From the IMG/VR virus record IMGVR_UViG_3300030329_003572, positions 1-43,375 of that record: a stretch of DNA of 43,375 nt. One strand, 5' to 3'. The notes under the pieces are model-generated. The model was not told the origin of the DNA and did no database searches. It saw only the letters and a program-made list of their open reading frames with translations. This document shows, one piece after another, positions 8,194 to 20,963 of the stretch (the stretch's first letter is position 1; each line of letters opens with the position of its first letter). The translations under genes were made by a program, and so were the position numbers. The stretch is from a virus.

Positions 8194-8538
8194 TTAGGTT
8201 CTCTTCTGGGGTTTGCGACTCTTCCTTAGCGCCTCCAACTCAGAGGTTAGGTCATTGAGTCTGGATAATATTGTTTCCGACGTGCTCCGAAGCTCCATAA
8301 TAACCTCGATGCGGCCAACGCACTTCCCAATGAGAAACTGCGATGGCTCCTTATCATCATCGGATTGAATCAAAATTTGATCACTCGAAAGCCTGTGTTC
8401 CAGGTAAGCCTGAAACTGAGGCAGTTTGATCACCTCTGAGAGAGCCTGCTGTGCGCGGAGCCTCTCCACCAAAGAACGCTCCCTATTCAGGAACCTCTTA
8501 TCATCCAGGTTCTTCGACAGATCTTGGATATACGACAT
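8194..8538 (-). CDS. coiled-coil protein of the head module (114 aa)
   Basis: The ATG shares one base with the portal stop (TAATG), so it is coupled to the portal. It is helical throughout with heptad-like leucines (LSKNLDDKRFLNRERSLVERLRAQQAL and SETILSRLNDLTSELEALRKS) and a basic end (RKSRKPQKRT). Unknown family; a portal- or scaffold-associated assembly protein is possible from position. Confidence 0.8.
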   Translation of the reverse strand: MSYIQDLSKNLDDKRFLNRERSLVERLRAQQALSEVIKLPQFQAYLEHRLSSDQILIQSDDDKEPSQFLIGKCVGRIEVIMELRSTSETILSRLNDLTSELEALRKSRKPQKRT

Positions 8539-10889
8539 TAGAACGAATTTTCAGATTGAAAGAATCCCTGGGTCCGGTCAGCGGCGGGGACTTGCCCCAT
8601 GTTTGGGGACCCATTCGTCTGTCCCGCTTGAGATCCTGGGCCACCAACCTCCGACGCCTGTTTGTTTACAACACCCGGCCCATTGGGCATCTGCTGATTC
8701 CCAGTGGTCCCTCGATTGGACTCTAGTTGCTGCGAAGGAGTAACAAATGGACCGGATTGCCCCTGCATCTGCCTCTTAGCTGCGGCCCTCTTCCTCTCCA
8801 ACTGGTTGTAGTGGGACTGGTAGTGGGACCGAATGTTATCCACCACCGCAGGACTCAGATCCAAGAACTCACCGCCGTCACCGAATAAAACCTCTGGGCC
8901 AAACCATTCGAGGATGGATTCAAGGTGTTCCTCATCATCATCCAACTCGTCAACCTTGACCTTTTGTCCCTGAGAGAGCATCCAGTTCTCCTCATGCTGA
9001 CTACAAAGATCCTTGTCCCGCGTTGGGATGTGAACAAGATCCTCGGAATCCACACCGCCGACGATGTGCTGCGCCAAAAGTTTCAGAAGCAATGGTTCAT
9101 TCACCATGCCTGGATACTTCGCAGCAACTGGAGCCGTCAAGTTCAGGAACTGCATGATTTGCGTAGCAACGAGATCGCCGCTATGTAAAGAGCCGAGGGC
9201 CGTGAAGGTGAAATCCACACGCCCCTGGAGGATCTCAGGGTCCATCGTCTCATACGAATTCAAGCCCTTGGCTTCCTTACCAAGAACTCGGAACTTCATC
9301 GGTCCGGTCACATATTGCTGATTCAACGCATGGAATTGCTCCAGCATGTCATTCAGCATCATGGTGTATGAGTGAACATAAGAACGCAACCGACGACTAG
9401 ACTCAGAAAGCTTCTGCGTTGCCTCGGTTGCGGTGCCGCTGTCTTCCGTCCCTGAAAGCAGCCGCGTTGATCCTGTAATCTCTTCAATGTTGTTCGCTAA
9501 TATCGAATCAGCAAACCTCATCTCACCAAGCGTCGATTTTGCTTGGATCTGTTGCATCCCCTGCAAGGAAGAGGCGTCAACTTGCAAGATAGCACCGGGT
9601 TCTAACTCCCAAAGGTTATCCGGCATGTCCCCCTGGTCGTTCAGAAGGACGACCGGACACATAGATTGCTTGTGACTTCGGAGCCCAAGAGATCGGTGCT
9701 GATTCATCTCCAACTGCGGACGAACAGCGTTATCAAACGGACCAATCGAAAAGAAGGTGAACGCATCGCGGTTCGCCCGACCCACTGCATAAGGTCGATG
9801 CTTATCGTCGAATGGGTTCTCTTGAATGCGGACTGGCACCCTGAAATTCACGACAGTGATCACACACTCTTGTGTCCTACCATTACCTTGAAGGTCAAAT
9901 CGTCCCCATAGCTCGCATACGTAGAACGATTTGGGTCCCCCATCTGCGATCTCATCGTGAGGTCCCCTCTGGATGCCAGTCCTGCGATTATTGTCTCTAT
10001 CCTCTTTATACCAAGCAGAGTAGTCAGTCCTCCCCAAGGGGGACTCATCTTTCAATGCTGCGGTATTACTGAATATGCCACGATCAGCCAGATCGTTGAT
10101 CTCATCCAAGGTCATCTTGGTTATGTCACCGACATAACGAGCATCCTTCACGTCCGTGCAATCCGTGTCGATGAAGAAATCAAACGGATCCACAAGACGC
10201 GCTCGGGGACCGTTGAACACAACCTTGTCTTCCTTTGTGAGCTTACAAGTGAGCCTATCCCTGCCTTCGACACGCTCGTTCTTGTATTTCCTTACTACCC
10301 GTTCCTCCGTTTGGATATCCCAGAACGTCTTCAGACAAGCAAACCCATAGGACAGCATTGTCCTGATCGCGGGCTGCACGTTCATGCGAAAACGATCAAT
10401 CTCTAGTTGGGCATTCAGGAAAGCATCTATCTTCTTGCTTTGCTCCTTATCGCCGCGCTCACGTCCGTGCGAACGAAACCACTCGTCCATTCCCAGGACT
10501 TGCTCCTCAATCCGAGGAACCATCCTTTCCATCGCCATGTAGAGTTCAGCAACCTCGCCCTCGCCCTCCTCCGAACGCATACCATCCATCAAACGACGAA
10601 TTAGCATCCACGTTTCGTGGACATCGCCCTGTTCTTCTTGGAAATGCTGAAGAACCTTGGTGACGTAGTTTGTGGCCCTCCGGTCGCGTTCCTCATCTAA
10701 GCCCGCCAGATTCTCATACGGAATCTGAATCGACTCCCACGCCTTTAGGTCTTCCGGCGTTGGCTCCGCGTTGATATCAACCGAGACCGTCCCCTCTTTC
10801 ACAGTAGACGGAACCGAACCAGAACGACCGGGTTCGACAGATGGCCCAGTCTTCAGCGGCATCTCGCGGTTGCTTGCCTTGACTACCAT
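8538..10889 (-). CDS. portal protein (783 aa)
   Basis: Large helical protein directly downstream of TerL. Residues about 60-140 contain helical segments typical of portal wings (EEQGDVHETWMLIRRLMDGMRSEE), and residues 480-550 the conserved long-helix region (GTATEATQKLSESSRRLRSYVHSYTMMLNDMLEQF) found in podovirus head-tail connectors; length is in the range of P22- and N4-like portals. The C-terminus (from residue 690) is Gln/Gly/Pro-rich and likely disordered or crown/barrel. The ATG is preceded by AGGTGA. Function: dodecameric DNA channel at the capsid vertex that docks TerL during packaging. Confidence 0.85.
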   Translation of the reverse strand: MVVKASNREMPLKTGPSVEPGRSGSVPSTVKEGTVSVDINAEPTPEDLKAWESIQIPYENLAGLDEERDRRATNYVTKVLQHFQEEQGDVHETWMLIRRLMDGMRSEEGEGEVAELYMAMERMVPRIEEQVLGMDEWFRSHGRERGDKEQSKKIDAFLNAQLEIDRFRMNVQPAIRTMLSYGFACLKTFWDIQTEERVVRKYKNERVEGRDRLTCKLTKEDKVVFNGPRARLVDPFDFFIDTDCTDVKDARYVGDITKMTLDEINDLADRGIFSNTAALKDESPLGRTDYSAWYKEDRDNNRRTGIQRGPHDEIADGGPKSFYVCELWGRFDLQGNGRTQECVITVVNFRVPVRIQENPFDDKHRPYAVGRANRDAFTFFSIGPFDNAVRPQLEMNQHRSLGLRSHKQSMCPVVLLNDQGDMPDNLWELEPGAILQVDASSLQGMQQIQAKSTLGEMRFADSILANNIEEITGSTRLLSGTEDSGTATEATQKLSESSRRLRSYVHSYTMMLNDMLEQFHALNQQYVTGPMKFRVLGKEAKGLNSYETMDPEILQGRVDFTFTALGSLHSGDLVATQIMQFLNLTAPVAAKYPGMVNEPLLLKLLAQHIVGGVDSEDLVHIPTRDKDLCSQHEENWMLSQGQKVKVDELDDDEEHLESILEWFGPEVLFGDGGEFLDLSPAVVDNIRSHYQSHYNQLERKRAAAKRQMQGQSGPFVTPSQQLESNRGTTGNQQMPNGPGVVNKQASEVGGPGSQAGQTNGSPNMGQVPAADRTQGFFQSENSF

Positions 10890-10963: not shown

Positions 10964-11197
10964 CTAAGTCTCTCCTCCCGCAGGAGCAGAAGAAGCAACA
11001 TGCTTTGACGCGATCCTCTTCTTCCTTGTCGAAGGTAAGGGACTGCCTTGAGACTCGATAACCTCGCTAACTAGCCCCCTAACAACCGTCGATTGCTCCG
11101 CAAACCATGGCTGGCCCGAAATAACCGCGTTCTGCCGCAGGATCGAGACGTGATCCCTGATCTTCTCCAACTTTCTCAGCAACTCGTCTCTGTTCAT
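10964..11197 (-). CDS. small helical protein between TerL and portal (77 aa)
   Basis: Start chosen at the ATG at 11197 (MNRDELLRKLEKI), which overlaps the TerL stop by 4 nt (ATGA) and has AAGGGAAG upstream; a TTG at 11224 would lengthen it by nine residues. It is helical with a basic C-terminal tail (TRKKRIASKHVASS). No recognised family. It could be a packaging or portal accessory protein; the missing small terminase is another possibility, but no HTH is visible. Confidence 0.75.
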   Translation of the reverse strand: MNRDELLRKLEKIRDHVSILRQNAVISGQPWFAEQSTVVRGLVSEVIESQGSPLPSTRKKRIASKHVASSAPAGGET

Positions 11198-12894
11198 CGT
11201 CTTCCCTTGTATTGAGATATCCAAGACCCGTTAGCAGTATGCTCCCGTGACGGTAAAACGTCAACCAACTGCTTTCGACCGTTTACCAAACGCTCAACCG
11301 GGATAACCGTCCCCCGACGCCTCCGGGAATCCCTACGTCGCCGTTCTCGCTGAACATTGCCGGGAGAACAGATCCTATAGCCCTTGCTGTCCAAGACGTC
11401 TATGTCCGCAATCGCGTCGGCAATGTCGTTCTTCCCATAAGATGGAAACCTTATGAATTCAAGAACCATCTCGCCGTCAGGCAGAACGTCCCCCGACTCA
11501 CCCGTGTAACCCTCCGGGTCGTATAATTTCTTCGTTTCACCAATATCCGTGAAAACCCTCGGAATCGTGTCCACGAACGAAATCGTCCCACGGCTGAAAC
11601 GCTGCTGGAGCTTCGCTATCCGCTGCTTCTTGCTGTCCTGACCGCTGCCCCGAGGAACGTCAACCATGTTCACCCGAGTCTGACGGGCCTTCGATTCCGC
11701 CAAGACCATCGCCTTGAACGTCGCATTCAACCCGATCTTCTCAAACAAGGTCTTACGGATCGGACTCCGGGACTCCCAGCGTTCGTGCATGTCTAAAATG
11801 TTCCCGACCACCTCCATCGGGTTCAAATGACCCACAAAACAGTCCAAAACATAAGCATCGTCCTTCGAGTCCAGACCAATCAATACACCAGCCGAATAAC
11901 AACCCTCGTCCTTCTCCGACGTTGCCGTATCAACAATCAAATACGTCGATAAATCCTTCATCCAATTTTCCCATCGAACAGAAACAAACTGCTCGCGGAA
12001 AAACAACATCTGGTCCGAAGACAAACACTGATTCAGATACTGAGACGAGAAATAGCCAGGGTCCTTCAACTGGTTGAACTGAAAACGCAGAAAATCCTCG
12101 TTCAAATGAGCAAACGTCGGAGGACCGCCAACCAACTCAACCTTGCCGCTCTCACTCCTCTCCAACTGCATCCCGCAATCCAGGATCAAAGTGTCAAACT
12201 CCTCCTGAAGATTGCCCAAAATGTGACCATACAAATCGTCATCGTGATAACGAGTGCCGCACACAATCAAAATCCCACCAGGATCCAATAGGAAAAACAA
12301 ACTCTTGAAGCATTGCAGAACCTTCTCAATGCCCTCCTTGTTCTTCACGTTGTCCTGGTTCACCAAGTCATCAGCAATGATCATGCTGTAGTGACCGCCA
12401 ACTCGCGTCTTGTCCACCCCAAATGTGCATAGACCCGGCTCCTTGTCAGCTTTATCAAGCGATACACCGCTCAACGTCAACGCGCTGTTGTTCCAGACAG
12501 GGCCGCGAACGTCACCCCAAAGATCTTTGATCTTCTCGCTGCCCTCAAAGATCTTCTTGATCCGAGCCAGAGACTGCTTCGCTACCTCGTTCACCTCCAT
12601 CCCATACAAAATACGGGCATTCGGATCACGGAGCATCGTTCGCATCACCAACGCTTCCAGCATCGAAGTCTTCAAAGATCCTCGCGGAGCCTCCATATGC
12701 TTCGTCCGACTCTCTGTGCTGTCCAAAAACGTGGTCATCTGAAGATGTGGACCCTCCGCACGCACACCACCACTACCACGGTTCACTATCTCACCCGTCA
12801 AATGATGCTGGTCGTAGTTGTAACCACAAATGTGACGAGCAAAAAAACCCGTGTCCGTCTCCGCTCGATACTTGAACGCTTCCGGCGTGATCAA
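11194..12894 (-). CDS. terL: terminase large subunit (566 aa)
   Basis: Packaging motor ATPase/nuclease. Walker A variant APRGSLKTS at residues 69-77, Walker B with catalytic acids MIIADD at 171-176, and coupling motif CGTRYH at 212-217. The RNase H-like nuclease domain begins at YLIVDTA (D322) and continues with LDSKDDAYVLDCFVG near 341 and a late acidic motif (DIADAIADIDVLD) near 480. The start is a TTG that overlaps the stop of the upstream lipoprotein gene by 4 nt (TTGA), with GGAG at a suitable distance; no ATG upstream fits. The basic tail (RERRRRDSRRRRG) near residue 520 is odd and could bind DNA or portal. Confidence 0.95.
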   Translation of the reverse strand: MITPEAFKYRAETDTGFFARHICGYNYDQHHLTGEIVNRGSGGVRAEGPHLQMTTFLDSTESRTKHMEAPRGSLKTSMLEALVMRTMLRDPNARILYGMEVNEVAKQSLARIKKIFEGSEKIKDLWGDVRGPVWNNSALTLSGVSLDKADKEPGLCTFGVDKTRVGGHYSMIIADDLVNQDNVKNKEGIEKVLQCFKSLFFLLDPGGILIVCGTRYHDDDLYGHILGNLQEEFDTLILDCGMQLERSESGKVELVGGPPTFAHLNEDFLRFQFNQLKDPGYFSSQYLNQCLSSDQMLFFREQFVSVRWENWMKDLSTYLIVDTATSEKDEGCYSAGVLIGLDSKDDAYVLDCFVGHLNPMEVVGNILDMHERWESRSPIRKTLFEKIGLNATFKAMVLAESKARQTRVNMVDVPRGSGQDSKKQRIAKLQQRFSRGTISFVDTIPRVFTDIGETKKLYDPEGYTGESGDVLPDGEMVLEFIRFPSYGKNDIADAIADIDVLDSKGYRICSPGNVQRERRRRDSRRRRGTVIPVERLVNGRKQLVDVLPSREHTANGSWISQYKGRR

Positions 12895-13184
12895 ACCGAC
12901 TCCGAGGGTTTCAACTTCTTCGACTTCAAAGCCTTCCGGGCCTTACTCGTAGCAACACAACCAACTACACCACCCAACGCCCATAATGCCCCAACAACAT
13001 TACCAGACAAAGCATTCGTCGCCACATCCCTCAAACCACCCTGAACCTCGGGATCCGACAAAACCTCCAAAGCCGAGGGCAAATCTAAAAACGAACAACC
13101 ACCCAAAACAAACAACAACAACACCAAAAATGAATACGAATACACAAAACACTCCAACAAACTCAAATCATCCGATGACCTCAA
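12891..13184 (-). CDS. small predicted lipoprotein with second membrane segment (97 aa)
   Basis: A hydrophobic stretch (FLVLLLFVLGGC) ends in a lipobox with the lipidated Cys at residue 29 from the TTG start at 13184. That TTG overlaps the preceding stop by 4 nt (TTGA) and has GAGGGG about 8 nt upstream. A GTG at 13145 (GGAG 6 nt upstream) would give a more standard 16-residue signal peptide. A second hydrophobic segment (GNVVGALWALGGVVGCVA) lies near residues 63-80, before a basic tail. It heads the packaging operon; a lysis (outer-membrane spanin-like) or superinfection-exclusion role is possible, unproven. Confidence 0.7.
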   Translation of the reverse strand: MRSSDDLSLLECFVYSYSFLVLLLFVLGGCSFLDLPSALEVLSDPEVQGGLRDVATNALSGNVVGALWALGGVVGCVATSKARKALKSKKLKPSESV

Positions 13185-13429
13185 TCTCGTAACCCCTCAA
13201 ATGCTCGCAGAACCAACTCCTCAAGGTCAGAATACAACGGATCCTTGCTCACCGCCTCGGCAATGTCCTGGAGCCATACAACCGCACGGATGTAGCGACC
13301 ACGATACAACGCATACGCAGCCTGATAATCAGCCAAACTTCGCGGGGTCCTAACGTCAACTCCCTCCATCGGAACCTCCCAACAAAAGGTCGCTGGCTCC
13401 TCCGATGTCTCCTCGGATAAATCACTCAT
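13181..13429 (-). CDS. first gene of the leftward block, unknown (82 aa)
   Basis: ATG at 13429, about 57 nt downstream of the predicted start site of the TATAAT promoter at 13493-13498. Acidic protein (MSDLSEETSEEPATF) with a helical middle (ADYQAAYALYRGRYIRAVVWLQDIAEAVS) and an acidic-leucine end (LEELVLRAFEGL). No family recognised. Being first in the packaging/virion operon makes it a candidate small terminase or regulator, but no DNA-binding motif is evident. Confidence 0.75.
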   Translation of the reverse strand: MSDLSEETSEEPATFCWEVPMEGVDVRTPRSLADYQAAYALYRGRYIRAVVWLQDIAEAVSKDPLYSDLEELVLRAFEGLRD

Positions 13430-13446
13430 TCCGGTAGTCTAGTTCT

Positions 13447-13455
13447 ATGGGACCC
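13447..13455. promoter_or_regulatory. operator-like repeat ATGGGACCC, copy 1
   Basis: This 9-bp word lies downstream of the leftward -10 box; the same word recurs at 13507-13517 upstream of it. The two copies are 60 bp apart and bracket the promoter. Confidence 0.4.
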
Positions 13456-13485
13456 TTTCGGATACACACAAGCGCAGGCTCTGCC

Positions 13486-13498
13486 TTGATCAATTATA
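13486..13498 (-). promoter_or_regulatory. leftward promoter -10 (TATAAT)
   Basis: On the minus strand a perfect TATAAT occupies 13498-13493, giving a predicted start near 13486 and a leader of about 57 nt before the 13429 ATG. The -35 region (GCCAAT at 17 nt) is poor, so an activator or phage factor may be needed. It is the only consensus -10 seen in front of the packaging/virion block. Confidence 0.5.
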
Positions 13499-13506
13499 TC
13501 TGGGAC

Positions 13507-13517
13507 ATGGGACCCAT
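13507..13517. promoter_or_regulatory. operator-like palindrome ATGGGACCCAT, copy 2
   Basis: A palindrome with one central base (ATGGG A CCCAT) immediately upstream of the TATAAT box on the minus strand, overlapping the place where a -35 would lie. It repeats the word at 13447-13455. Confidence 0.4.
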
Positions 13518-13532
13518 TGGCGACCCCCCCTT

Positions 13533-13560
13533 CCCCCCCCCCCCTTCGGGGGGAGCTTTT
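13533..13560 (+). terminator. C-tract/UUCG hairpin, weak intrinsic terminator
   Basis: A run of 12 C (13533-13544), a TTCG loop closed by C-G, then GGGGG and a short TTTT. A C(UUCG)G-capped stem followed by U residues can stop rightward transcription. It would insulate the leftward promoter. No upstream rightward gene is evident. Confidence 0.35.
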
Positions 13561-13582
13561 GACGTGTTTCCTCGCGCGCAGG

Positions 13583-13594
13583 CCCGCGCGCGGG
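13583..13594. repeat. 12-bp perfect palindrome CCCGCGCGCGGG
   Basis: Exact self-complementary GC block in the non-coding divergence region; another GCGCGC lies a few bases to its left. It could form a protein site or hairpin; function unknown. Confidence 0.45.
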
Positions 13595-13718
13595 TCTAAT
13601 CGCCTGCCCTGTCACGGTTTCCAGGGATACCCCGCCAACGCGAGGGCGTTACGGTATGCCGAACCTATAGCGCGGGATTCGTACGCGCAACCGCTCCCCA
13701 CGAAATGGGATTGTAGCG

Positions 13719-13732
13719 GTAAATGCATTTAC
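13719..13732. promoter_or_regulatory. 14-bp perfect palindrome GTAAATGCATTTAC
   Basis: Exact palindrome about 20 bp left of the first iteron array. Its AT-rich core and position between divergent blocks suit a repressor or initiator site. No gene overlaps it. Confidence 0.45.
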
Positions 13733-13752
13733 GGTAGATCCTTGCGAAGTAC

Positions 13753-13806
13753 GACACGGGTTTGACACGGCTCCGACACGGCTGTGACACGCCGAGTGAC
13801 ACGCCA
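13753..13806 (+). repeat. iteron-like array, left arm (5 x GACACG)
   Basis: GACACG begins at 13753, 13764, 13775, 13786 and 13798, so spacings are 11, 11, 11 and 12 bp, about one helical turn. Flanking bases are also shared (GGCT after most copies). The array is the imperfect inverted partner of 14048-14100. Confidence 0.8.
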
Positions 13807-13816
13807 CAAAGCCTTA

Positions 13817-13841
13817 CCGGAAAGGGGTTTCCGGCTTTTTT
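13817..13841 (+). terminator. intrinsic terminator right of the left iteron array
   Basis: Perfect 7-bp stem CCGGAAA/TTTCCGG with a GGGG loop (13817-13834) followed by C and six T. It would stop a rightward transcript that has passed through the left repeats. No protein gene lies upstream on this strand, which suggests a short non-coding RNA or insulation. Confidence 0.7.
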
Positions 13842-14009
13842 GGTCGATATGGCACGCGGTCGGGGGGGAGAAAGCCCCCCCTGTGTGTGTGATTTTGTTC
13901 GCTTACTCCCTATCGTAATAGGTCCCCCCATATACGCCGTAAAGTAATTACACGAAATCGTGATTTTCTCGGGCGAGGTAAATCCCCGAAGGCGTGCAGT
14001 ACAGTACAG

Positions 14010-14043
14010 TTTATAACATAACTATATATATATATATACTTTA
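14010..14043. other. AT-rich tract with (TA)n, candidate DNA-unwinding element
   Basis: TTTATAACATAAC is followed by about nine TA steps in an otherwise GC-rich region. It directly abuts the right iteron array (from 14048). AT-rich tracts beside iterons are where origins melt in plasmid- and phage-type replicons; here that role is inferred. Confidence 0.5.
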
Positions 14044-14047
14044 CCCC

Positions 14048-14101
14048 CGTGTCATACCCCGTGCCACAGCCGTGCCACAGCCGTGCCAAACCCGTGCCAT
14101 A
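14048..14101 (-). repeat. iteron-like array, right arm (5 x CGTGNCA)
   Basis: CGTGTCA at 14048 and CGTGCCA at 14060, 14071, 14082 and 14093 give spacings of 12, 11, 11 and 11 bp, the mirror of the left array. Read on the minus strand the units are TGGCACGGNNN and TGACACGG, matching the left units. Confidence 0.8.
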
Positions 14102-14155
14102 GTATGTGTCGATCACGGGTAGAATCTTTTTTCTTTTGTTGTTGTTTCTTTCTGT

Positions 14156-14168
14156 CGATACCGTATCG
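14156..14168. promoter_or_regulatory. 13-bp palindrome CGATAC-C-GTATCG
   Basis: Perfect 6-bp arms around one base, in the leader of the first rightward gene (ATG 14215), just after a pyrimidine tract. It could be an operator or a leader hairpin controlling the rightward block. Confidence 0.4.
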
Positions 14169-14203
14169 TTCTTCAATCGGCACTTCCGCCGCAGTCCAGT
14201 CAA

Positions 14204-14211
14204 GACAGAAC
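14204..14211 (+). promoter_or_regulatory. GACAGAAC start-proximal box 1
   Basis: Box ends 3 nt before the ATG at 14215. It is one of seven copies ahead of rightward genes; see the finding on the shared leader motif. Confidence 0.6.
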
Positions 14212-14214
14212 ATC

Positions 14215-14679
14215 ATGACTAAAAGACAAAACAAGCTCACCCGCAAGCCGAACCAAGGCGAAGAGGTTTTGATCCACTTCAGCCTCCACACCGGCGAATG
14301 GTGCGTAAAGACCCGCAACGCGGGCAAGTGGTCCGTGACGCATTACACGACGTCTTGTAGCGTCACCAACGCAACCCCGGCGCTAGCTTCCGGCGGTAGC
14401 AACCTGACCACAGCCGGAGTTGAGCGAATCCGCAAGAATGGCGCTCGCGAGGTTGTTCTCTCAATTCGCGGGCGATGGAACGGCGACGGTATCCCGTCAA
14501 ACGTCCAACGCCATACCGACCGTCTCCGGTTCAACCCCTTCCATAACGACACGTTCCAATTCCAGGGACGCGATTGGAAAGGCGGCAACGCAGAACTTCT
14601 CATGCTTTTCGAGGTCGCTGTAGACTTCGACAGGCGCTCCAAGTCCGGCGCGATAGCGCGTCCGGCACGTGTTCTCTAA
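14215..14679 (+). CDS. first gene of the rightward block, unknown (154 aa)
   Basis: Start chosen at the ATG at 14215 because it carries the GACAGAAC box; the open frame extends upstream only through non-coding repeats. The N-terminus is basic (MTKRQNKLTRKPNQGEEVLIHF), then a beta-rich middle (LIHFSLHTGEWCVKTRNAGKWSV, REVVLSIRGRW) and a basic end (DRRSKSGAIARPARVL). It has no recognised family. Position next to the presumed origin and first in the early-looking block suits a regulator or host-takeover protein. Confidence 0.75.
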   Translation: MTKRQNKLTRKPNQGEEVLIHFSLHTGEWCVKTRNAGKWSVTHYTTSCSVTNATPALASGGSNLTTAGVERIRKNGAREVVLSIRGRWNGDGIPSNVQRHTDRLRFNPFHNDTFQFQGRDWKGGNAELLMLFEVAVDFDRRSKSGAIARPARVL

Positions 14680-14689
14680 CTCAAACCAA

Positions 14690-14697
14690 GGCAGAAC
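14690..14697 (+). promoter_or_regulatory. GGCAGAAC start-proximal box 2
   Basis: Box ends 2 nt before the ATG at 14700. The first base differs from the common GACAGAAC form. Confidence 0.55.
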
Positions 14698-14699
14698 CT

Positions 14700-15029
14700 A
14701 TGAATTACCCAACGATGATCGAGATCCCCCGCTACGTTGTCGAGGACCTCGACATTCAAACCGAGAACGGCGGCGATGATTGCGAGTACGGGCAAATGCT
14801 TCGCAAGATCCTCGCAACCCAGAACGGGCGAGAATTCACCATCTCAACCCGGGAACAGGCGCAAGCCGTCTTCGATTCGGCAACCCACCTAAACGAGACC
14901 GCCCGGGGCGAGATTAGCGACGGGGATTACACCGAACCGGAGCTAGCCGATTACCGGGAAATGAGGGACGACACCTACACCCTACGCCGCGCCCTCAAGG
15001 CGTTGGGATTCAAACCCGAGGCATACTAG
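14700..15029 (+). CDS. small acidic protein, unknown (109 aa)
   Basis: Starts MNYPTMIEIPRYVVEDLDIQ at the ATG that follows box 2, 20 nt after the previous stop. It is acidic (ENGGDDCEYG, ISDGDYTEPELADYREMRDD) and mainly helical. No motif is recognised. Small acidic early phage proteins often bind and block host enzymes; here that is only a possibility. Confidence 0.75.
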   Translation: MNYPTMIEIPRYVVEDLDIQTENGGDDCEYGQMLRKILATQNGREFTISTREQAQAVFDSATHLNETARGEISDGDYTEPELADYREMRDDTYTLRRALKALGFKPEAY

Positions 15030-15103
15030 GACTGGCGGCCCAGGCGAGCCGCAATCGCCTACAATAGCCTTTTCGAGGGGTCGGCTCTCTCAGTGTTACC
15101 CAA

Positions 15104-15111
15104 GACAGAAC
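15104..15111 (+). promoter_or_regulatory. GACAGAAC start-proximal box 3
   Basis: Box ends 2 nt before the ATG at 15114. Confidence 0.6.
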
Positions 15112-15113
15112 CA

Positions 15114-15440
15114 ATGACAGACTACCTGAAAACCAAGATCGCAGAATCCAAACAAACCGAAACCCCGCGCTATGGTGAGGTCCGAATTGTGGACGGGAAG
15201 GGTAGACTTCGAGTCGGGCGTTTTTCTACGTCCTACCTTATCAGGCTTGAGGGCGAGAAACGCTTTCGGCGTGTTATGTGCTGGCAGTTTTCCAACGTGG
15301 GAACCTTGTTTGTAAGGATCAAGGGCACGCCGTATATCGTGCGGGAATACGATATTCCGACACCGGCCCCCGATACCGTCGCAATTGAATCTGATACCTG
15401 GGCGGGCGTTCTAGCGCAAGCCGACAAACTTCGGACCTAA
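15114..15440 (+). CDS. small basic beta-rich protein, unknown (108 aa)
   Basis: Start chosen at ATG 15114 (MTDYLKTKIAESKQ) because of box 3; a GTG at 15093 would add seven residues. The product is beta-rich (GEVRIVDGKGRLRVGRFSTSYLIRL, GTLFVRIKGTPYIVREYDI) and ends with a helix. The 80-bp gap before it holds an AGGCGA/TCGCCT hairpin and no gene. Function unknown. Confidence 0.75.
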   Translation: MTDYLKTKIAESKQTETPRYGEVRIVDGKGRLRVGRFSTSYLIRLEGEKRFRRVMCWQFSNVGTLFVRIKGTPYIVREYDIPTPAPDTVAIESDTWAGVLAQADKLRT

Positions 15441-15472
15441 TCAAACCGGCGGTTGGACCGCCACACTCCCCG

Positions 15473-15488
15473 CCGGGGGTTTTCCCGG
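15473..15488 (+). promoter_or_regulatory. leader hairpin CCGGG-N6-CCCGG (copy A)
   Basis: Five-base stem 22-26 nt ahead of the 15514 start. It is followed by AACCTAGAAAC and box 4. The same order (hairpin, ACCTAGAAAC, box, ATG) recurs at 16160-16206. Confidence 0.5.
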
Positions 15489-15502
15489 AAACCTAGAAAC
15501 GA

Positions 15503-15510
15503 GACAGAAC
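15503..15510 (+). promoter_or_regulatory. GACAGAAC start-proximal box 4
   Basis: Box ends 3 nt before the ATG at 15514, after ACCTAGAAAC. Confidence 0.6.
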
Positions 15511-15513
15511 ACT

Positions 15514-15699
15514 ATGGAAAACGAAAACTACGAAAAGAATCCAGCGGACTACGCTCTGCAACTGGTGGAGGAAGGCCTAGTGTCGGCTGATACCTTGCTG
15601 CTTTGCGCCATCAAAGCGATGGACGGAGATCAGATCCGATGGATGCTAGACGTGAACGAACTTTCTCCCCGCTTTATGGAGGTTTCCGACGATGAATAA
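15514..15699 (+). CDS. small acidic protein, unknown (61 aa)
   Basis: Begins MENENYEKNPADYALQLVEEG and is acidic and helical to the end (LSPRFMEVSDDE). The stop overlaps the next ATG by 8 nt (ATGAATAA), so the two genes are likely co-translated. The leader and first codons resemble those of the gene at 16204. No family recognised. Confidence 0.75.
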   Translation: MENENYEKNPADYALQLVEEGLVSADTLLLCAIKAMDGDQIRWMLDVNELSPRFMEVSDDE

Positions 15700-16114
15700 G
15701 CAGAGAGAAGAAACTCATTCCCGCGTTACGTTCTTCAGGACGGGAGCCTTTGGCGTGTCGGCAGTTTTTTGCAAGGATCTGGAGATCCTAGAGGAAGAAC
15801 TTCGCGACGGTTCCCGCCGGTTTACCTTGAAATTTCTACAGCCCCGGAAGCGCAAGCGGCGCGGGACTCTAGTAGACGCTAAGGATCTTTGGGTGATATC
15901 TGGAGATATGGGCGGCCTAGTCCCGCCAGTCTTTGAAACGAACCCGCGTGATCCATGTATAGAGGATTCTCGGTACACTTGTTTCTCTCCCGAGTGGCGA
16001 AAGGAATTTGAGGCCAACCTTGAGGCCGCGCTTGCCGGTGGAGCTATCGAGCCCGAATCTGTGATTGTCAACGCTGGCGAGTGGACTACACCCGCCGCTC
16101 AAGAGGTGAAGTAA
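15692..16114 (+). CDS. unknown protein coupled to 15514 gene (140 aa)
   Basis: ATG lies inside the last codons of the previous gene and has no GACAGAAC box, consistent with translational coupling. A basic patch (LKFLQPRKRKRRGTLVDAKDLW) sits at about residues 48-69. The C-terminal part is acidic-helical (SPEWRKEFEANLEAALAGG). No recognised family. Confidence 0.75.
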   Translation: MNKQREETHSRVTFFRTGAFGVSAVFCKDLEILEEELRDGSRRFTLKFLQPRKRKRRGTLVDAKDLWVISGDMGGLVPPVFETNPRDPCIEDSRYTCFSPEWRKEFEANLEAALAGGAIEPESVIVNAGEWTTPAAQEVK

Positions 16115-16159
16115 CCCACGCCCCGGCGGGGGGCTTCACCCCGTCAACCCATTGCCCTA

Positions 16160-16178
16160 CCGGGTGGGCTTTACCCGG
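16160..16178 (+). promoter_or_regulatory. leader hairpin CCGGGT-N7-ACCCGG (copy B)
   Basis: Six-base perfect stem, then CAACCTAGAAAC and box 5 before ATG 16204. It is a duplicated leader of the 15473-15514 type. Confidence 0.5.
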
Positions 16179-16190
16179 CAACCTAGAAAC

Positions 16191-16198
16191 GACAGAAC
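16191..16198 (+). promoter_or_regulatory. GACAGAAC start-proximal box 5
   Basis: Box ends 5 nt before the ATG at 16204. Confidence 0.6.
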
Positions 16199-16203
16199 GA
16201 ACC

Positions 16204-16416
16204 ATGAAAAACGAAACATTCGACGAATTCTCTCTACTTATCAGAGGCGGAAACGCCGCGTTTGAGGAATCTAGCGCGGAGGAAGTGGCGCGAATCCTTG
16301 AGAAGTTGGCAGGATCCATCCGGCAAGGTGAGGACGTTACCGAGTTTGACGGTCGAAAGTTGCTGGACTACAACGGTAACAGCGTCGGTATCGTCAAGGT
16401 CAGGGGGGAGGACTGA
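16204..16416 (+). CDS. small acidic protein, unknown (70 aa)
   Basis: Starts MKNETFDEFSLLIRGG after the duplicated leader and is helical (SSAEEVARILEKLAGSIRQ) with a short beta end (NGNSVGIVKVRGED). It shares an N-terminal style with the 15514 product. Unknown function. The GGGGGGAGGA at its 3' end serves as the ribosome site for the next gene. Confidence 0.7.
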   Translation: MKNETFDEFSLLIRGGNAAFEESSAEEVARILEKLAGSIRQGEDVTEFDGRKLLDYNGNSVGIVKVRGED

Positions 16417-16420
16417 ACCC

Positions 16421-16663
16421 ATGAACCACAACCTACTCACCCGGTGGCCTGACGGCAGGATTCGCGCTCGCGCATCGTGGGAACCCGAACTGCGGGGCAT
16501 CCTAGCGGATGACGTTGCAAGGCGGGGGATCACATGGCAGGCGAAAGTCGAGGAACTGGAAGACTCCCGCCCTGCTGGCTGGGGTACCGATTTCCGCTAC
16601 GTGTTGGAAGTCTGCCGATCCATGGCCCGAGAGGACGAAATCGAAGCAACCGAGTGGAGCTAG
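16421..16663 (+). CDS. small protein, unknown (80 aa)
   Basis: ATG 16421 has GGGGGGAGGA about 8 nt upstream, a normal Shine-Dalgarno and no GACAGAAC box. The sequence MNHNLLTRWPDGRIRARASW is basic, followed by an acidic helix (KVEELEDSR, SMAREDEIEATEW). The start region (CCCATGAACCACAA) is repeated at the next gene (16667). No family recognised. Confidence 0.7.
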   Translation: MNHNLLTRWPDGRIRARASWEPELRGILADDVARRGITWQAKVEELEDSRPAGWGTDFRYVLEVCRSMAREDEIEATEWS

Positions 16664-16669
16664 AATCCC

Positions 16670-16804
16670 ATGAACCACAAACGCAAACCCATGTTCCCTC
16701 CGCCCCCGCGCCAGCGGCCCATCTTCTCCGATTACGAGATGATCGGAGCCTTCCTAGTCGCCCTCGCATTTGTGTGCATATCCGCTATGGCGGAACGCCT
16801 GTGA
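16670..16804 (+). CDS. tiny predicted membrane protein (44 aa)
   Basis: ATG 16670, TGA 16802-16804. N-terminus MNHKRKPMFPPPPRQRP is basic and proline-rich, then a single hydrophobic segment (MIGAFLVALAFVCISAMA) near residues 23-40. The start repeats CCCATGAACCACAA from 16418, suggesting duplication of the start region. It could be a small inner-membrane toxin or regulator, or a holin-like peptide for the nearby endolysin. Confidence 0.5.
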   Translation: MNHKRKPMFPPPPRQRPIFSDYEMIGAFLVALAFVCISAMAERL

Positions 16805-16874
16805 TTTCGAGTCGATCAGGATTTCTAGGATTTCCTTGGCAATCCTGTCGATGACGGCTACAACTTTCAATCGA

Positions 16875-16882
16875 GGCAGAAC
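16875..16882 (+). promoter_or_regulatory. GGCAGAAC start-proximal box 6
   Basis: Box ends 1 nt before the ATG at 16884. Confidence 0.55.
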
Positions 16883-16883
16883 A

Positions 16884-17231
16884 ATGACAGAAACAACGAA
16901 ACGAATTGGATGCCACCACAAGTATGGGTCGGCATCGTCACGCGGGACCGTCACCCGGATGATCCGACACGCCAAGAAACACGGCGCAAAGTATGCGGAG
17001 GTTTGGGGTGGAGGCGACGAGGCCGATTACCTCGGGGAAAAGGAATTCGATATCCTCGACCACTGCTTCGCATGTGATTTCACGGCGCTACTGTTCTTCG
17101 ACAAAGCTGGCAATCGCCTGGGGAAATTCTTGCTAGTGCCAGCCAACGAGCCTCAAGACGGCAACGAAATTGTGGGCGACTGGTCTGTGAATTCCTGGAC
17201 GGACGAATTGATGGAGGCAGTCGAACGATGA
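16884..17231 (+). CDS. unknown protein (115 aa)
   Basis: ATG chosen by box 6 (MTETTKRIGCHHKYGSASSR); an open frame continues upstream only through the previous gene's shadow. A basic helix (VTRMIRHAKKHGAKY) precedes an acidic part (GGGDEADYLGEKEFDILDHCFACDF) with C/H residues that may be structural. The stop overlaps the next ATG by 4 nt. No recognised family. Confidence 0.75.
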   Translation: MTETTKRIGCHHKYGSASSRGTVTRMIRHAKKHGAKYAEVWGGGDEADYLGEKEFDILDHCFACDFTALLFFDKAGNRLGKFLLVPANEPQDGNEIVGDWSVNSWTDELMEAVER

Positions 17232-17428
17232 CGGAAGTTCCGAAAAATACAACCGACGCCCTCGCGTTGGGAATTGTCTTGATCCACAACGCGCCATCGA
17301 AAATGCACGCGGAACTAGCAATGTCTTTGATTCTCGACTTGCTGTCCGTTATGTCGAGGAAGGAAATTGAATCCGCTCGCGTTCTCGCGGCGGCCACCAT
17401 TGCATCACAAGGAGGAAATGATGAGTGA
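17228..17428 (+). CDS. small helical protein, unknown (66 aa)
   Basis: ATGA overlap with the previous gene indicates coupling. The product is nearly all helical and moderately hydrophobic (ALALGIVLIHNAPSKMHAELAMSLILDLLSVMS). Its end contains AAGGAGG, the ribosome site of the next gene. No family recognised. Confidence 0.7.
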   Translation: MTEVPKNTTDALALGIVLIHNAPSKMHAELAMSLILDLLSVMSRKEIESARVLAAATIASQGGNDE

Positions 17429-17639
17429 GATGAGTGAAACATCGGATGATGTATTGCGCGAGCGCGAGCTTGCCGAAAAGGAATTCCAAATCTGGCTGGG
17501 CCAACAGGGCGAACTGGTGAGGGAATTACCTCTGTCAGAACAACGCGAGATGTGGATGGCGCATCGCTACGTCGATCTACAGAGAACGATTTCGCGGATC
17601 GCTGGGAAGATGGGCAAAGCCCTGAAGGGGGAGGACTGA
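17421..17639 (+). CDS. small acidic helical protein, unknown (72 aa)
   Basis: Start chosen at the second of two tandem ATGs because AAGGAGG (17409-17415) is then 5 nt away; the first (17418) would be too close. The helical acidic sequence (DDVLRERELAEKEFQIWLGQQGELVREL) overlaps the previous stop. The 3' end carries GGGGGAGGA for the endolysin start. Unknown function, possibly an endolysin regulator by position. Confidence 0.7.
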   Translation: MSEMSETSDDVLRERELAEKEFQIWLGQQGELVRELPLSEQREMWMAHRYVDLQRTISRIAGKMGKALKGED

Positions 17640-17640
17640 G

Positions 17641-18204
17641 GTGAAGACTTCAATAGCAGCCCTACTCCTCGCGGTAGCCCTTCCAGGCCAGGGTTACACC
17701 TGGGCGGACACCCTGCAAGCCATCCGGTCGGTCGAGACGGGGGGACTCCCTCGTCACGGCCTGGGTGCAAAGGGTGACGGGGGCAATGCCCTCGGCCCAT
17801 TTCAGATATGGCGGATTTACCACACTGATGCCCGTGGCCGCGATAAATCACTGACGCGATACGAGCGTTGCCTGACGTCGCTGGATTACTCGGAGAGGGT
17901 AGTCCGCGCATACATGGCTCGCTACGCCTCCCAGGCTTTGAGGCGCTTAGAGAGCAAACGCGGGACTCTGGAGGATGTCGAGCGGGTGAGCCGCATCCAC
18001 AATGGGGGGCCGCGAGGCTATCGGAAGGCGGCAACTCTCAAATACTGGAAGAAAGTCATCTTGCGTTTGAGGCGAAATCGCCAACAATCAATTTCTCTCT
18101 CTGTCAACTTGTCGTTGACGTTTCCGGGCTGTACCGCATCCCGGAGGAGCGACCCCCACTTTCCGGCTAGTTCTGTCGTCGGGGGGTGGGGGTCATTTTT
18201 TTAG
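17641..18204 (+). CDS. secreted lysozyme/transglycosylase-like endolysin (187 aa)
   Basis: Peptidoglycan-cleaving enzyme of the lysozyme-like fold. GTG start with GGGGGAGGA about 6 nt upstream. Residues 1-17 form a signal-like segment (MKTSIAALLLAVALPGQG), which suggests Sec export rather than holin-only release. Then AIRSVETGG places the likely catalytic Glu at 32; ALGPFQIW near 50-57 and RIHNGGPRGYRKA near 118-130 match the G-P-F-Q-I and H/Y-N-x-G motifs of this superfamily. The last 40 residues are Ser/Pro-rich and unusual: the final codons are encoded by the intrinsic terminator at 18151-18202, so the functional domain probably ends near residue 145. Confidence 0.8.
   Translation: MKTSIAALLLAVALPGQGYTWADTLQAIRSVETGGLPRHGLGAKGDGGNALGPFQIWRIYHTDARGRDKSLTRYERCLTSLDYSERVVRAYMARYASQALRRLESKRGTLEDVERVSRIHNGGPRGYRKAATLKYWKKVILRLRRNRQQSISLSVNLSLTFPGCTASRRSDPHFPASSVVGGWGSFF
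18151..18202 (+). terminator. intrinsic terminator overlapping the endolysin 3' end
   Basis: Perfect 9-bp stem GACCCCCAC (18151-18159) / GTGGGGGTC (18186-18194), loop 26 nt, then A and seven T. It lies inside the endolysin frame, whose stop follows at once. Confidence 0.8.
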
Positions 18205-18214
18205 GAGCCGACTG

Positions 18215-18571
18215 ATGGGATTTTTTTCATTCGAGTGCCGAGGATGTGGCGAATCACTCAAAGCGCCGTACGATATCCCCGAGATAATTGAGTGGCAAAA
18301 CGATGTTGTAGCGATTACAGCGGAAGGCGAGAATCTTGCCGGGACCTATGATGGATATGGGAGAATTGCGAGGGTGACAAACGGCGAAGTGATTTCCACC
18401 AGCATCAGGAAACCAGCCGAGTGCTGGCATAAGTGGTGCTGGGAAGAATCGGGGTCGCCGGATACCTTCACCAAGGCAAGTGGCAACGCAGACGATCAAG
18501 GATTCTTCTACGACAAGACCGAGCCAGTTCGCTCCCATCGCGGCCTGCCGAATATTTCCACCCACCCCTAG
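18215..18571 (+). CDS. cysteine-pair small protein, unknown (118 aa)
   Basis: ATG 18215 with AGGAG about 8 nt upstream, immediately after the endolysin terminator. MGFFSFECRGCGES has a CxxC at C8/C11 and a second Cys pair (ECWHKWCW) near 69-74, suggesting a zinc knuckle. The GTYDGYGRI segment in a beta-rich middle is a motif I have seen in small phage hypothetical proteins. Function unknown. Confidence 0.75.
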   Translation: MGFFSFECRGCGESLKAPYDIPEIIEWQNDVVAITAEGENLAGTYDGYGRIARVTNGEVISTSIRKPAECWHKWCWEESGSPDTFTKASGNADDQGFFYDKTEPVRSHRGLPNISTHP

Positions 18572-18572
18572 C

Positions 18573-18647
18573 TCCCCGACTAACCGAGTGCCAGTCGAGT
18601 CGCCCTAACACTCCTGGCTCCTCCCCTCGGTTGGTCGGGGGCTTTTT
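18573..18647 (+). terminator. intrinsic terminator before the recombinase gene
   Basis: CCCCGACTAACCGAG near 18573 pairs with CTCGGTTGGTCGGGG near 18626-18640 (15 bp with one G-T wobble), followed by GCTTTTT. It ends 5 nt before the recombinase ATG, so that gene must be started by a promoter beyond it, by read-through, or by lacking one. Confidence 0.75.
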
Positions 18648-18651
18648 CACC

Positions 18652-19344
18652 ATGACAATCCTTGCGTACCTCCGGGTTTCGACGGTCCACCAACTCGACG
18701 GGGGGGGGCTGGATCGTCAGCGCGATTGCATTCAGAAGTGGGCAATCGCCAACGAGATGGCGATGCCAATTTTCTACGTTGAGCCGGGGGTCAGCGGCAC
18801 GCTCACGATTGAAGACCGCACGGCGCTCCCGGCCATGATGCAACACCTAGAGGATCATCGCGGAGTCACCCACATTCTTGTTGAGAACATGGACCGGCTT
18901 GCCCGCGATGGTTTGGTTGCAGAATTGATTTTCTCGGAATTTGAGAAGATCCGACCCGGCGTGAAAGTGATCTCCTGCGATACGGGTATCGACCTCGCCG
19001 ATGTCGGTGACCCCTCCCGAAAGATGATCCGGCAAATCCTCGGCGCTGTCGCTGAATTCAACAAGCAGCAGACGGTGATGCGCTTGAGGGCAGGCCGCGA
19101 GAAGCGCCGCCGCGAGACAGGGCGATGCGAAGGGCGTAAGCCGCTCAAGGTTGACAAGACACACCTCTCCGCGATCCTGTCGTTGAAAGCGAAACGTCTT
19201 CCGCTCCGCTCTATCGCCAAGACCCTTGAGATCTATGGGATGTTCAGACCCAACGGAGGCAAATACAGCCACCAAGCGATCAGCGATATCCTAAGACGTC
19301 ATTCGGGTTCCGGTTCCGGTTCCGGTTCGGGTTCCGGGGCCTGA
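18652..19344 (+). CDS. small serine recombinase (resolvase/invertase family, 230 aa)
   Basis: Site-specific recombinase. The ATG at 18652 gives MTILAYLRVSTVHQLDGGGLDRQ with catalytic Ser at about residue 10 in the YLRVST motif. The ENMDRLARDGL segment near 80-90 carries the conserved Arg pair, FSEFEKIRPGVKVIS follows, and a long E helix (RKMIRQILGAVAEFNKQQTVMRLRAGREKRRRETG) precedes a C-terminal HTH (LSLKAKRLPLRSIAKTLEIYGMFRPNGGKYSHQAISDIL). It ends in a (SG)n tail encoded by GGTTCC repeats. Size excludes a large serine integrase with long zinc domain. It could resolve genome multimers or invert or integrate DNA; no crossover site was recognised. Confidence 0.9.
   Translation: MTILAYLRVSTVHQLDGGGLDRQRDCIQKWAIANEMAMPIFYVEPGVSGTLTIEDRTALPAMMQHLEDHRGVTHILVENMDRLARDGLVAELIFSEFEKIRPGVKVISCDTGIDLADVGDPSRKMIRQILGAVAEFNKQQTVMRLRAGREKRRRETGRCEGRKPLKVDKTHLSAILSLKAKRLPLRSIAKTLEIYGMFRPNGGKYSHQAISDILRRHSGSGSGSGSGSGA
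19303..19340 (+). repeat. GGTTCC tandem repeat coding the SG tail of the recombinase
   Basis: Short tandem hexamers at the gene's 3' end are read as Ser-Gly. They are followed, after the stop, by a different tandem repeat (GGGGCT). Such simple repeats may vary in length. Confidence 0.7.
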
Positions 19345-19346
19345 GC

Positions 19347-19381
19347 GGGGGCTGGGGCTGGGGCTGGGGCTGGGGCTGGGG
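19347..19381 (+). repeat. (GGGGCT)n tandem repeat, G-quadruplex candidate
   Basis: Six G-runs of 4-5 bases separated by CT (runs at 19347-51, 54-57, 60-63, 66-69, 72-75, 78-81). Two-base loops favour a parallel-type G-quadruplex in the plus strand or its RNA. Confidence 0.8.
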
Positions 19382-19450
19382 CATCCTCGACTGGCGTGGT
19401 GCTACCTGCGAATGGCCGACGATCTCTTGCGTATGTTCTGGACATATCGC

Positions 19451-19470
19451 CATCCTAACGTGCTAGGATG
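19451..19470 (+). promoter_or_regulatory. hairpin over the ribosome site of the PP-loop gene
   Basis: CATCCTA (19451-19457) pairs with TAGGATG (19464-19470), loop ACGTGC. TAGGATG is also the ribosome-binding region of the GTG start at 19476, so the stem could mask it. Confidence 0.4.
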
Positions 19471-19475
19471 ACCGA

Positions 19476-20318
19476 GTGAACCCCTACCTTCTCGATCTTC
19501 CCGCCGTCATCTCGTTCTCGGGGGGTCGCACCAGCGGCTACATGCTCCGCAGGATACTGGACGCTCATGGCGGACAGCCTGAAGACCTGAAGATCTGCTT
19601 TCAGAACACGGGCCTGGAACACGCAGCGACTTACGAATTCGTGAAGGACTGCGCTCATCGCTGGGATTGCGACATCACTTGGCTGGAATACTGCGTCAAA
19701 GACGGTGACCACGATTTCCGGGTGGTTGACTACGACTCTGCGAGCCGCAACGGGGAACCGTTCTCGCAACTCATCGAGAAGCGTGGCTATTTGCCGTCAG
19801 TGGTAGCACGCATCTGCACCACCATGTTGAAGATGCGTACGATGGATAAACACATCCGTACATTACCGGGATTTGAAGACGGATACACCAACGCGGTTGG
19901 ATTGCGAGCGGACGAGCCGCACCGAGCGCAACGGATCAAATCTGACAACTCCCGAGAAGAAATAATCTGTCCTATCTACGAGAACGGAGAGACTGAGGTT
20001 CAGGTTCTGGAGTTCTGGAAAGAGCAACCATTCGATCTGAATCTACCCTTGCGGGGGAATATGGCGGGTAACTGCGTCGGATGCTTTCTGAAGAAACGGA
20101 GCAAAATAGAACTTCTTGCTAAGGAGATGCCGGAGTATTTCAACTGGTGGATTGACGCAGAGAAATGGGCTTCCCAGCGTTCCGACGTTCGGGTGAAGAA
20201 ATTCCGGGAAGACCGCCCAAGCTACGCAAAGATCATAGAAATGACGGAGAGGCAAGGTTGGCTCCAATTTGAGGGTGACGCTGACGAAGTTCCCATCCCC
20301 TGCATGTGTCATGACTGA
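19476..20318 (+). CDS. PP-loop / PAPS-reductase-like protein (280 aa)
   Basis: PP-loop ATPase family (phosphoadenosine phosphosulfate reductase-like). The nucleotide-binding P-loop variant SFSGGRTSG is at residues 13-21. ICTTMLKMRTMDKHI near 112-126 matches the family's C-T-x-x-L-K segment, and NAVGLRADEPHRAQRI near 138-153 the G-x-R-x-x-E motif. NCVGCFLKKRSK near 195 and the end PIPCMCHD give extra cysteines that could bind a metal or iron-sulfur centre. GTG start at 19476 behind a TAGGATG site. Such phage proteins are common but their substrate is not known; sulfur or nucleotide modification is possible. It overlaps the next ATG by 8 nt. Confidence 0.85.
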   Translation: MNPYLLDLPAVISFSGGRTSGYMLRRILDAHGGQPEDLKICFQNTGLEHAATYEFVKDCAHRWDCDITWLEYCVKDGDHDFRVVDYDSASRNGEPFSQLIEKRGYLPSVVARICTTMLKMRTMDKHIRTLPGFEDGYTNAVGLRADEPHRAQRIKSDNSREEIICPIYENGETEVQVLEFWKEQPFDLNLPLRGNMAGNCVGCFLKKRSKIELLAKEMPEYFNWWIDAEKWASQRSDVRVKKFREDRPSYAKIIEMTERQGWLQFEGDADEVPIPCMCHD

Positions 20319-20697
20319 GGACTTGGAGGAATGCGCGGACTGCCCAGTCCAAGGCGCTTGCTGCCGGATCACGGTTGCCGTCGAGGATTGCGTGAGAGTC
20401 TACTCCTCCTATTCCTGTCCTCACCTCTTGGAGAGCGGACTGTGCGGCAACTACGAGGATCGCGCCAGCGTTCCCTGGTGCGTGTCAAAGGATGATCTCG
20501 ATATCTCTTGGCCTTCGCTCTGCGCCCATCGAAAAACTGGGCAGGACCATATCCTCACCGTTGCCGAGTACATCATGCTGAAGGGCGGCACGCCCAAGAA
20601 TTACGAGGATCTCCGCAGGGTGATTGACGCATCGGCTCGCAAGGACATGGCCGACAATTTTGGGTGGGATCTCGACCAGGAAAAATCCGGCGAATGA
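20311..20697 (+). CDS. YkgJ-like cysteine-cluster protein (128 aa)
   Basis: ATG 20311 lies inside the end of the PP-loop gene, so the pair is coupled. The first 65 residues carry C9, C12, C18, C19, C28 and further Cys in CPHLLESGLCGNYEDRASVPWC, the pattern (CxxC..CC..., CpxL..gxC..Y..RP..C) of YkgJ/CxxCxxCC zinc/iron-chelating proteins. The C-terminal half is charged and helical. Its partner supplies a PP-loop, so the two may share a metal or sulfur function. The family call is moderately sure. Confidence 0.7.
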   Translation: MTEDLEECADCPVQGACCRITVAVEDCVRVYSSYSCPHLLESGLCGNYEDRASVPWCVSKDDLDISWPSLCAHRKTGQDHILTVAEYIMLKGGTPKNYEDLRRVIDASARKDMADNFGWDLDQEKSGE

Positions 20698-20708
20698 TTT
20701 TTCTCTAG

Positions 20709-20776
20709 CCCTCTCGGAGGGCGCTCTCCCGCCAAATTGGAAATGGAGTGACCCTCGGAGTTGAGGCTCTCCCGCC
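20709..20776. repeat. direct repeats with CTCTCCCGCC core
   Basis: Two imperfect units of about 25 bp (20709-20733 and 20752-20776) with CCCTCNCGGAG and CTCTCCCGCC; a third partial core (GTCCTCCCGCC) is at 20828-20838. The first unit also contains the small hairpin CCCTC-TCG-GAGGG. Confidence 0.55.
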
Positions 20777-20886
20777 TCCTCCGTTGCCGCCAACAATTTT
20801 GAATCTTTTTTAGGATCCAACTCCAACGTCCTCCCGCCTTCTCCTCGTTCTGACCAACCCCTGATCTGAGGGTGCCCGAAAATCGT

Positions 20887-20896
20887 GTGATACAAT
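20887..20896 (+). promoter_or_regulatory. extended -10 promoter (TGTGATACAAT)
   Basis: TACAAT at 20891-20896 with TG two to four bases upstream. A start near 20903 would place the palindrome in the first transcribed bases. No TTGACA-like -35 at 17 bp. Confidence 0.35.
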
Positions 20897-20907
20897 GGTA
20901 CTCACGC

Positions 20908-20930
20908 GGCGGGCGAACAGTTCGCTCGCC
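20908..20930. promoter_or_regulatory. 23-bp palindrome (operator-like)
   Basis: GGCGGGCGAAC - A - GTTCGCTCGCC: 11-bp arms with one mismatch around a central base, just downstream of the extended -10. It suits a repressor operator or an RNA hairpin. Confidence 0.5.
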
Positions 20931-20954
20931 AATTTCGCTGTTTGACAATTTGGA

Positions 20955-20962: not shown

Positions 20963-20963
20963 A

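Follow-up and report, generated by a model that had tools for sequence, protein, structure and literature searches.

What is the function of two mirrored arrays of short repeats that lie in the largest gap of a marine phage genome, at the point where its genes diverge? The arrays are found in IMGVR_UViG_3300030329_003572, a 43,375-base virus record of a podovirus-like marine phage, analysed here over its whole length (the window). The best-supported answer, with a probability of roughly 70%, is that the region at 13.75-14.10 kb is a two-array iteron replication origin, served most likely by the primase-helicase of the phage itself. The locus consists of the following parts:

13430-14216, no strand: intergenic region with the candidate origin, the largest gap of the genome (787 bp; the next is 304 bp).
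13750-13803, plus strand: left iteron array, five YGRCACG units at 13753, 13764, 13775, 13786 and 13798 (spacing 11, 11, 11, 12).
14048-14101, minus strand: right iteron array, an inverted copy of the left, with units at 14048, 14060, 14071, 14082 and 14093 (spacing 12, 11, 11, 11).

The ten positions and spacings given in the original prediction are all exact, and YGRCACG is the reading of all 10 units. Because both arrays are spaced 12, 11, 11, 11 from the inside outward, they mirror each other exactly in register. Together they form a 54-nt inverted repeat, 80% complementary, with 244 nt between them, which bears out the earlier description of the right array as an imperfect inverted copy of the left. 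This arrangement is not a product of chance: the longest chain of a 6-mer at 10-13 bp spacing has five members in the window versus at most three in 100 dinucleotide-preserving shuffles, and a motif-free detector of mirrored array pairs marks exactly one in the window versus none in 60 shuffles. The arrays also lie, as had been proposed, where two gene blocks diverge, with leftward ORFs starting at 13429 and a rightward block (14217-22445) beginning near 14217 with an ATG; a program-called GTG start at 14083 falls inside the right array. The two blocks converge near 22.44 kb.

Other elements of the gap were compared with the only relative obtained from the collections, IMGVR_UViG_3300025141_011079, which shares 80% nucleotide identity over 11.9 kb:

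14008-14043, no strand: (TA)n tract, candidate DNA-unwinding element, between the arrays and abutting the right one.
13997-14012, no strand: GTACAGTACAG direct repeat, adjoining the TA tract and kept in the relative by alignment.
13812-13844, plus strand: terminator-like hairpin with a T-run (hairpin and run at 13817-13842), 85% identical in the relative.
13438-13530, minus strand: leftward promoter-like block holding a pair of ATGGGACCC boxes at a distance of 60 bp, conserved in the relative and separate from the arrays.

The TA tract had been predicted to abut the right array, and it lies 5-10 bp from it. By nearest-neighbour energies, 14008-14037 is the least stable 30-bp stretch in the 43.4 kb (z -5.4; next -3.0), and the tract is also the stability minimum at the 50 and 100 bp scale. 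The corresponding tract is the stability minimum of the relative's 17.8-kb contig as well (z -4.3; next -3.1). The location of the least stable DNA between the arrays in both phages supports the view, already put forward for this locus, that it is a candidate origin. The off-centre position of the AT tract counts against this view; the 244-bp spacer is only 53% AT overall, contains the terminator and carries the AT tract at one side. That terminator, anticipated on the left-arm side, is the hairpin that adjoins the left array on the plus strand; it would halt rightward transcription ahead of the AT tract, and one of its stem pairs is broken on the plus strand in the relative. At the far left of the gap, a long G-run on the minus strand lies upstream of the promoter-like block and is kept in the relative; the segment 13438-13549 is possibly a late-promoter operator pair with a G-quadruplex.

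Conservation was assessed in this one relative; single-protein queries with the primase or the first rightward gene returned no others, and a query with the portal protein returned only the relative already known. Both arrays are present there, in the same place and the same register. In the right array, three of five units are intact (sites 2-4 from the inside), the innermost and outermost are eroded, and there are no insertions inside. The left array keeps two of five units intact, the inner two with their 12-bp step, while the next two sites are reduced to TGAC and retain the 11-bp step. Compared with the relative, the inner left sites are 90% identical, the right array 74%, the spacer 54% and the outer left array 41%. 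From the state of each site and these identities, it follows that the arrays hold their place and pitch as their outer sites erode. The strict detector reports no mirrored pair in the relative. Conservation in relatives, named beforehand as a check, is thus borne out for the presence and spacing of both arrays and only in part for the sites themselves, whose erosion counts against the origin reading.

It is possible, though unlikely, that the arrays are instead operators, through which a phage or host regulator, for example of the OmpR/PhoB type with 11-bp direct repeats, controls early and leftward promoters that diverge from here, with the TA tract as the rightward -10 region. Tandem sites one turn apart suit regulators too, and the arrays sit between divergent gene blocks. 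In addition, a weak sigma-70-like site, ATAACA-16-TATACT, occupies 14013-14040; because the right array lies just downstream of this -10-like site in the TA tract, it may have a regulatory role on the right side. Such a sigma-70 site was not found in the relative, however, and the conserved promoter-like block with its paired boxes belongs to the leftward unit itself, more than 200 bp from the left array. Five plus five sites in a perfect mirror around the weakest DNA also exceed the needs of a repressor.

Cumulative GC skew, another check suggested for an origin, does change at this place: it turns near 14.5-15 kb and reverses near 22.5 kb. Both turns coincide with changes of gene direction, divergent and convergent respectively, and third-position skew on the coding strand of rightward genes is about 0. 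Since the skew tracks gene orientation and its third-position component is near zero in rightward genes, it is not independent evidence; the expected change is present, yet uninformative as a product of transcription, and cumulative GC skew was rejected as origin evidence. As a separate observation, the three leftward genes nearest the gap (11194-13429) have a strong third-position G + T excess, and their G skew, 0.31-0.84, falls with distance from the array gap.

The gene complement of the phage includes the following:

6108-7148, leftward: major head protein.
8538-10889, leftward: T7-type head-tail adaptor/portal.
11194-12894, leftward: TerL.
18433-19344, in the right block: serine recombinase (resolvase family).
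25372-28185, minus strand: 937-aa primase-helicase (zinc region, Toprim, DUF927 AAA+), the candidate initiator.

The matches of this TerL show 23-28% identity, and several are from Zobellviridae. Further products of the window are SSB, RecT and an ERCC4 nuclease; the ORFs searched include none recognisable as a DNA polymerase. Rfam and tRNA scans were both empty. Among the remaining genes, a 2584-aa ORF (34035-41789) has one stretch that matches a ParB C-terminal PHROG (E 8e-14), and its product is possibly a polyvalent protein that enters the cell along with the DNA. A 493-aa ORF (20964-22445), weakly similar to HSP90/histidine-kinase-type ATPases (E 7e-4), adjoins a PAPS reductase gene (19476-20318). 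Both ends of the record (1-120 and 43035-43375) carry an Ala/Gly-rich repeat of one kind on the minus strand, probably from a single repeat gene that is split there; because the ends share this repeat, the record may be a nearly complete circular map.

Within this gene set, the 937-aa primase-helicase, already suggested as a binding partner, is the best candidate for the protein that binds the arrays. It matches PHROG primase families (E 1e-17) and Toprim_2 (1.6e-8), and its DUF927 match (E 2.6e-5, 24.5 bits against a curated cut-off of 22.6) is a modest similarity that counts against the origin reading. The protein shows no recognisable winged-helix or Cch HTH domain, with no match to HTH_56. 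DUF927 was matched in none of 25 other contigs reached by search. An AlphaFold2 model, computed with no relatives in the input, was unusable (mean pLDDT 33). As for other initiator types, no O-like protein or replisome organizer was matched among the window genes searched, and no RepA/Rep_3 initiator among the ORFs searched in Pfam and PHROGs. The arrays and the primase-helicase gene are 11 kb apart; that they are not adjacent, unlike in SaPI and nearly all surveyed phages, also counts against the origin reading.

Comparison phages were picked by protein homology alone, through a DUF927/MCM-like helicase, and their DNA was inspected afterwards. The best database match of the window primase, over residues 36-305, is gp47 of phage Krampus, a Toprim and MCM-like protein. 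The 487-bp gap before gp47 contains mirrored CCACAAT arrays with 32-nt arms (88%), the only mirrored pair marked by the motif-free detector in 36.7 kb, and TinyMiny has the same layout at a 10-11 bp pitch. Six more phages were matched through a DUF927 protein (THSA-485A, FP_Epona, AC844P1, phiRg507T2_3, Jekyll and phiAH14b). In each, a gap of 211-365 bp located at the helicase gene or close to it contains a short word repeated in both orientations. An unspaced 6-mer test gives p <=0.005 for each against shuffles, though THSA-485A and AC844P1 fail when a strict 8-13 bp spacing is imposed. No mirrored repeat pair occurs in 21 of the 22 other gaps, which were compared by counts only and are shorter than the helicase gaps. 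Arrays are absent from Shambre1, matched solely via the primase-polymerase part, and from BSTP12 and A-4L. In Pseudomonas phage phiAH14b (L196, 4830-5138), mirrored GGGAAC repeats lie in the gap right after the DUF927/MCM-like helicase gene, and mirrored CGGTTA repeats have the same position in THSA-485A (L190, 5097-5461); both gaps are likely origins, predicted from this layout.

A family of phage contigs encoding DUF927 with a Cch-HTH (L169-L186) carries mirrored GGTACGCA sites 3' of the gene in 18 of 18 cases. The site occurs three or four times at an 11-bp pitch, about 190-300 bp after the gene and at a nearly fixed distance, and is accompanied by inverted TGCGTACC copies, two of them 8 bp apart in 17 of 18 contigs (L184 is without one site). 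This family forms a very clean set of origin candidates. Counts of the window's motif in IMG/VR prove nothing, since the 11-bp motif is found in 77 stretches versus 76 for a control of the same composition; the control motif is itself another iteron family beside DUF927 genes. The 76 control contigs, picked by this unrelated word and not fully independent, include seven marked by the motif-free detector. In L141 the array pair follows a DUF927 + Cch-HTH gene at a distance of about 140 bp, and in L117 it follows a DUF5906 helicase ORF at about 80 bp; the pair in L118 is not beside its helicase, and those in L102 and L154 show no clear link. The last two, L147 (8167-8400) and L113 (7556-7790), have terminase genes downstream of an AT-rich segment that is flanked by mirrored GGTAC arrays; neither contig yielded a DUF927 or DUF5906 gene. 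Among contigs found by the window's motif, L034 and L057 have, next to DUF5906 helicase genes, mirrored arrays with AT-rich DNA between them. Replication proteins (DnaD-like loaders, replisome organizers, O-like proteins and DnaB) are abundant around the test arrays; this is given little weight because many of these are GTCACGG arrays that apparently lie inside coding frames and the control shows some such neighbours too. The window encodes a DUF927 helicase of the initiator type, and such helicases are generally paired with mirrored arrays in other phages. The presence of these arrays beside the helicase gene in DUF927/MCM-like phages, as in published SaPI/PICI origins, supports the interpretation of the window's locus as a candidate origin.

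The same survey bears on a packaging or genome-end site, to which the terminase, encoded a short way left of the arrays, would bind; such a role is improbable. TerL starts 860 bp from the arrays, and mirrored arrays are likewise upstream of terminase genes in L147 and L113 and in L006. In L006 (10990-11600), mirrored GAGGCACGGGT arrays stand upstream of TerS-like and TerL-like ORFs and form part of a longer inverted repeat close to the end of the contig; the contig was dropped as support, as its arrays belong to that repeat. Against packaging, no small terminase subunit was recognised in the window, the record ends elsewhere, in the Ala/Gly-repeat stretch, and DUF927/MCM-like phages have such arrays by the helicase, not the terminase. 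A recombination or transposition site, in which the inverted repeats round the 244-bp segment would be a substrate of the serine recombinase or the ends of a small mobile element, is very improbable: a resolvase-family gene is present in the right block and arrays of the window's motif adjoin an integrase in L058, but the inner segment has the same orientation and place in the relative, and serine recombinase sites differ from five-fold 11-bp arrays.

The two-array origin reading can be put as a sequence of steps. Initiator molecules would bind ten YGRCACGG sites, five per orientation and about one helical turn apart. The two oppositely oriented assemblies would then melt the TA tract between them, two helicase rings would be loaded, and bidirectional theta replication would start with other host enzymes. 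The most likely initiator would be the 937-aa Toprim-DUF927 protein, acting in trans from 11 kb away.

By analogy, the candidate origin may work like those of SaPI/PICI elements. DUF927 is described as a predicted helicase family of mobile-element primases, and MCM helicases have been noted in phages (PMC5862659). According to PMC7581432, the DUF927 helicases include SaPIbov1 Rep and Cch, and the C-terminal domain of SaPI Rep recognises iterons at an origin directly downstream of the rep gene. That source and PMC6092414 outline SaPI/PICI origins in which an AT-rich melting site separates two oppositely oriented sets of short iterons. A 2018 description calls this layout common to all PICIs studied and to 'no other known bacterial replicon'. 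The window likewise has two iteron sets in opposite orientation, melting-prone DNA (14008-14037) between them, though abutting one, and its own DUF927-type helicase and primase. It differs in being a tailed phage with its own capsid genes, in the fusion of primase and helicase in one chain, in the AT tract to one side of a 244-bp spacer with a terminator, and in an origin candidate 11 kb from the initiator gene. Because this candidate does not lie directly 3' of that gene, the element is not classed with the SaPI/PICI type.

Other systems share fewer of these traits. In SCCmec, Cch2 is a mobile-element helicase that binds short direct repeats as an origin, and Cch is a DUF927 member; Cch2 belongs to another helicase family, its repeats are just downstream of its gene, and the sections on Cch/Cch2 describe no long mirrored array (PMC7581432). 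The Krampusvirus phages of Microbacterium (Krampus and TinyMiny) resemble the window in their mirrored short units at a 9-11 bp pitch and their Toprim-MCM-like primase-helicase, whereas their motif is CCACAAT and their arrays directly precede the gene, with only some 50 bp between the two; their record carries no origin description. Lambda-type origins likewise combine iterons with AT-rich DNA opened by a phage initiator. The lambda iterons lie inside gene O, are longer and have one orientation, whereas the window arrays are non-coding and mirrored, with no O-like protein found.

In SaPI and SCCmec elements, MCM-like DUF927 helicases are known to act as initiators, but the replication start sites of such helicases in ordinary tailed phages are hardly documented in the literature searched. 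The chances are about even that mirrored iteron arrays are the common origin design of tailed phages with a DUF927/MCM-like initiator helicase, and that the origin of this marine podovirus now lies apart from its initiator gene, having moved to the point of transcription divergence. The rule would be mirrored arrays at a pitch of about 10-11 bp, usually beside the helicase gene and around weak DNA. It predicts origins in the cultured phages Krampus, TinyMiny, THSA-485A, FP_Epona, Jekyll and phiAH14b, and makes the relationship between satellite and phage origins of this kind directly testable.
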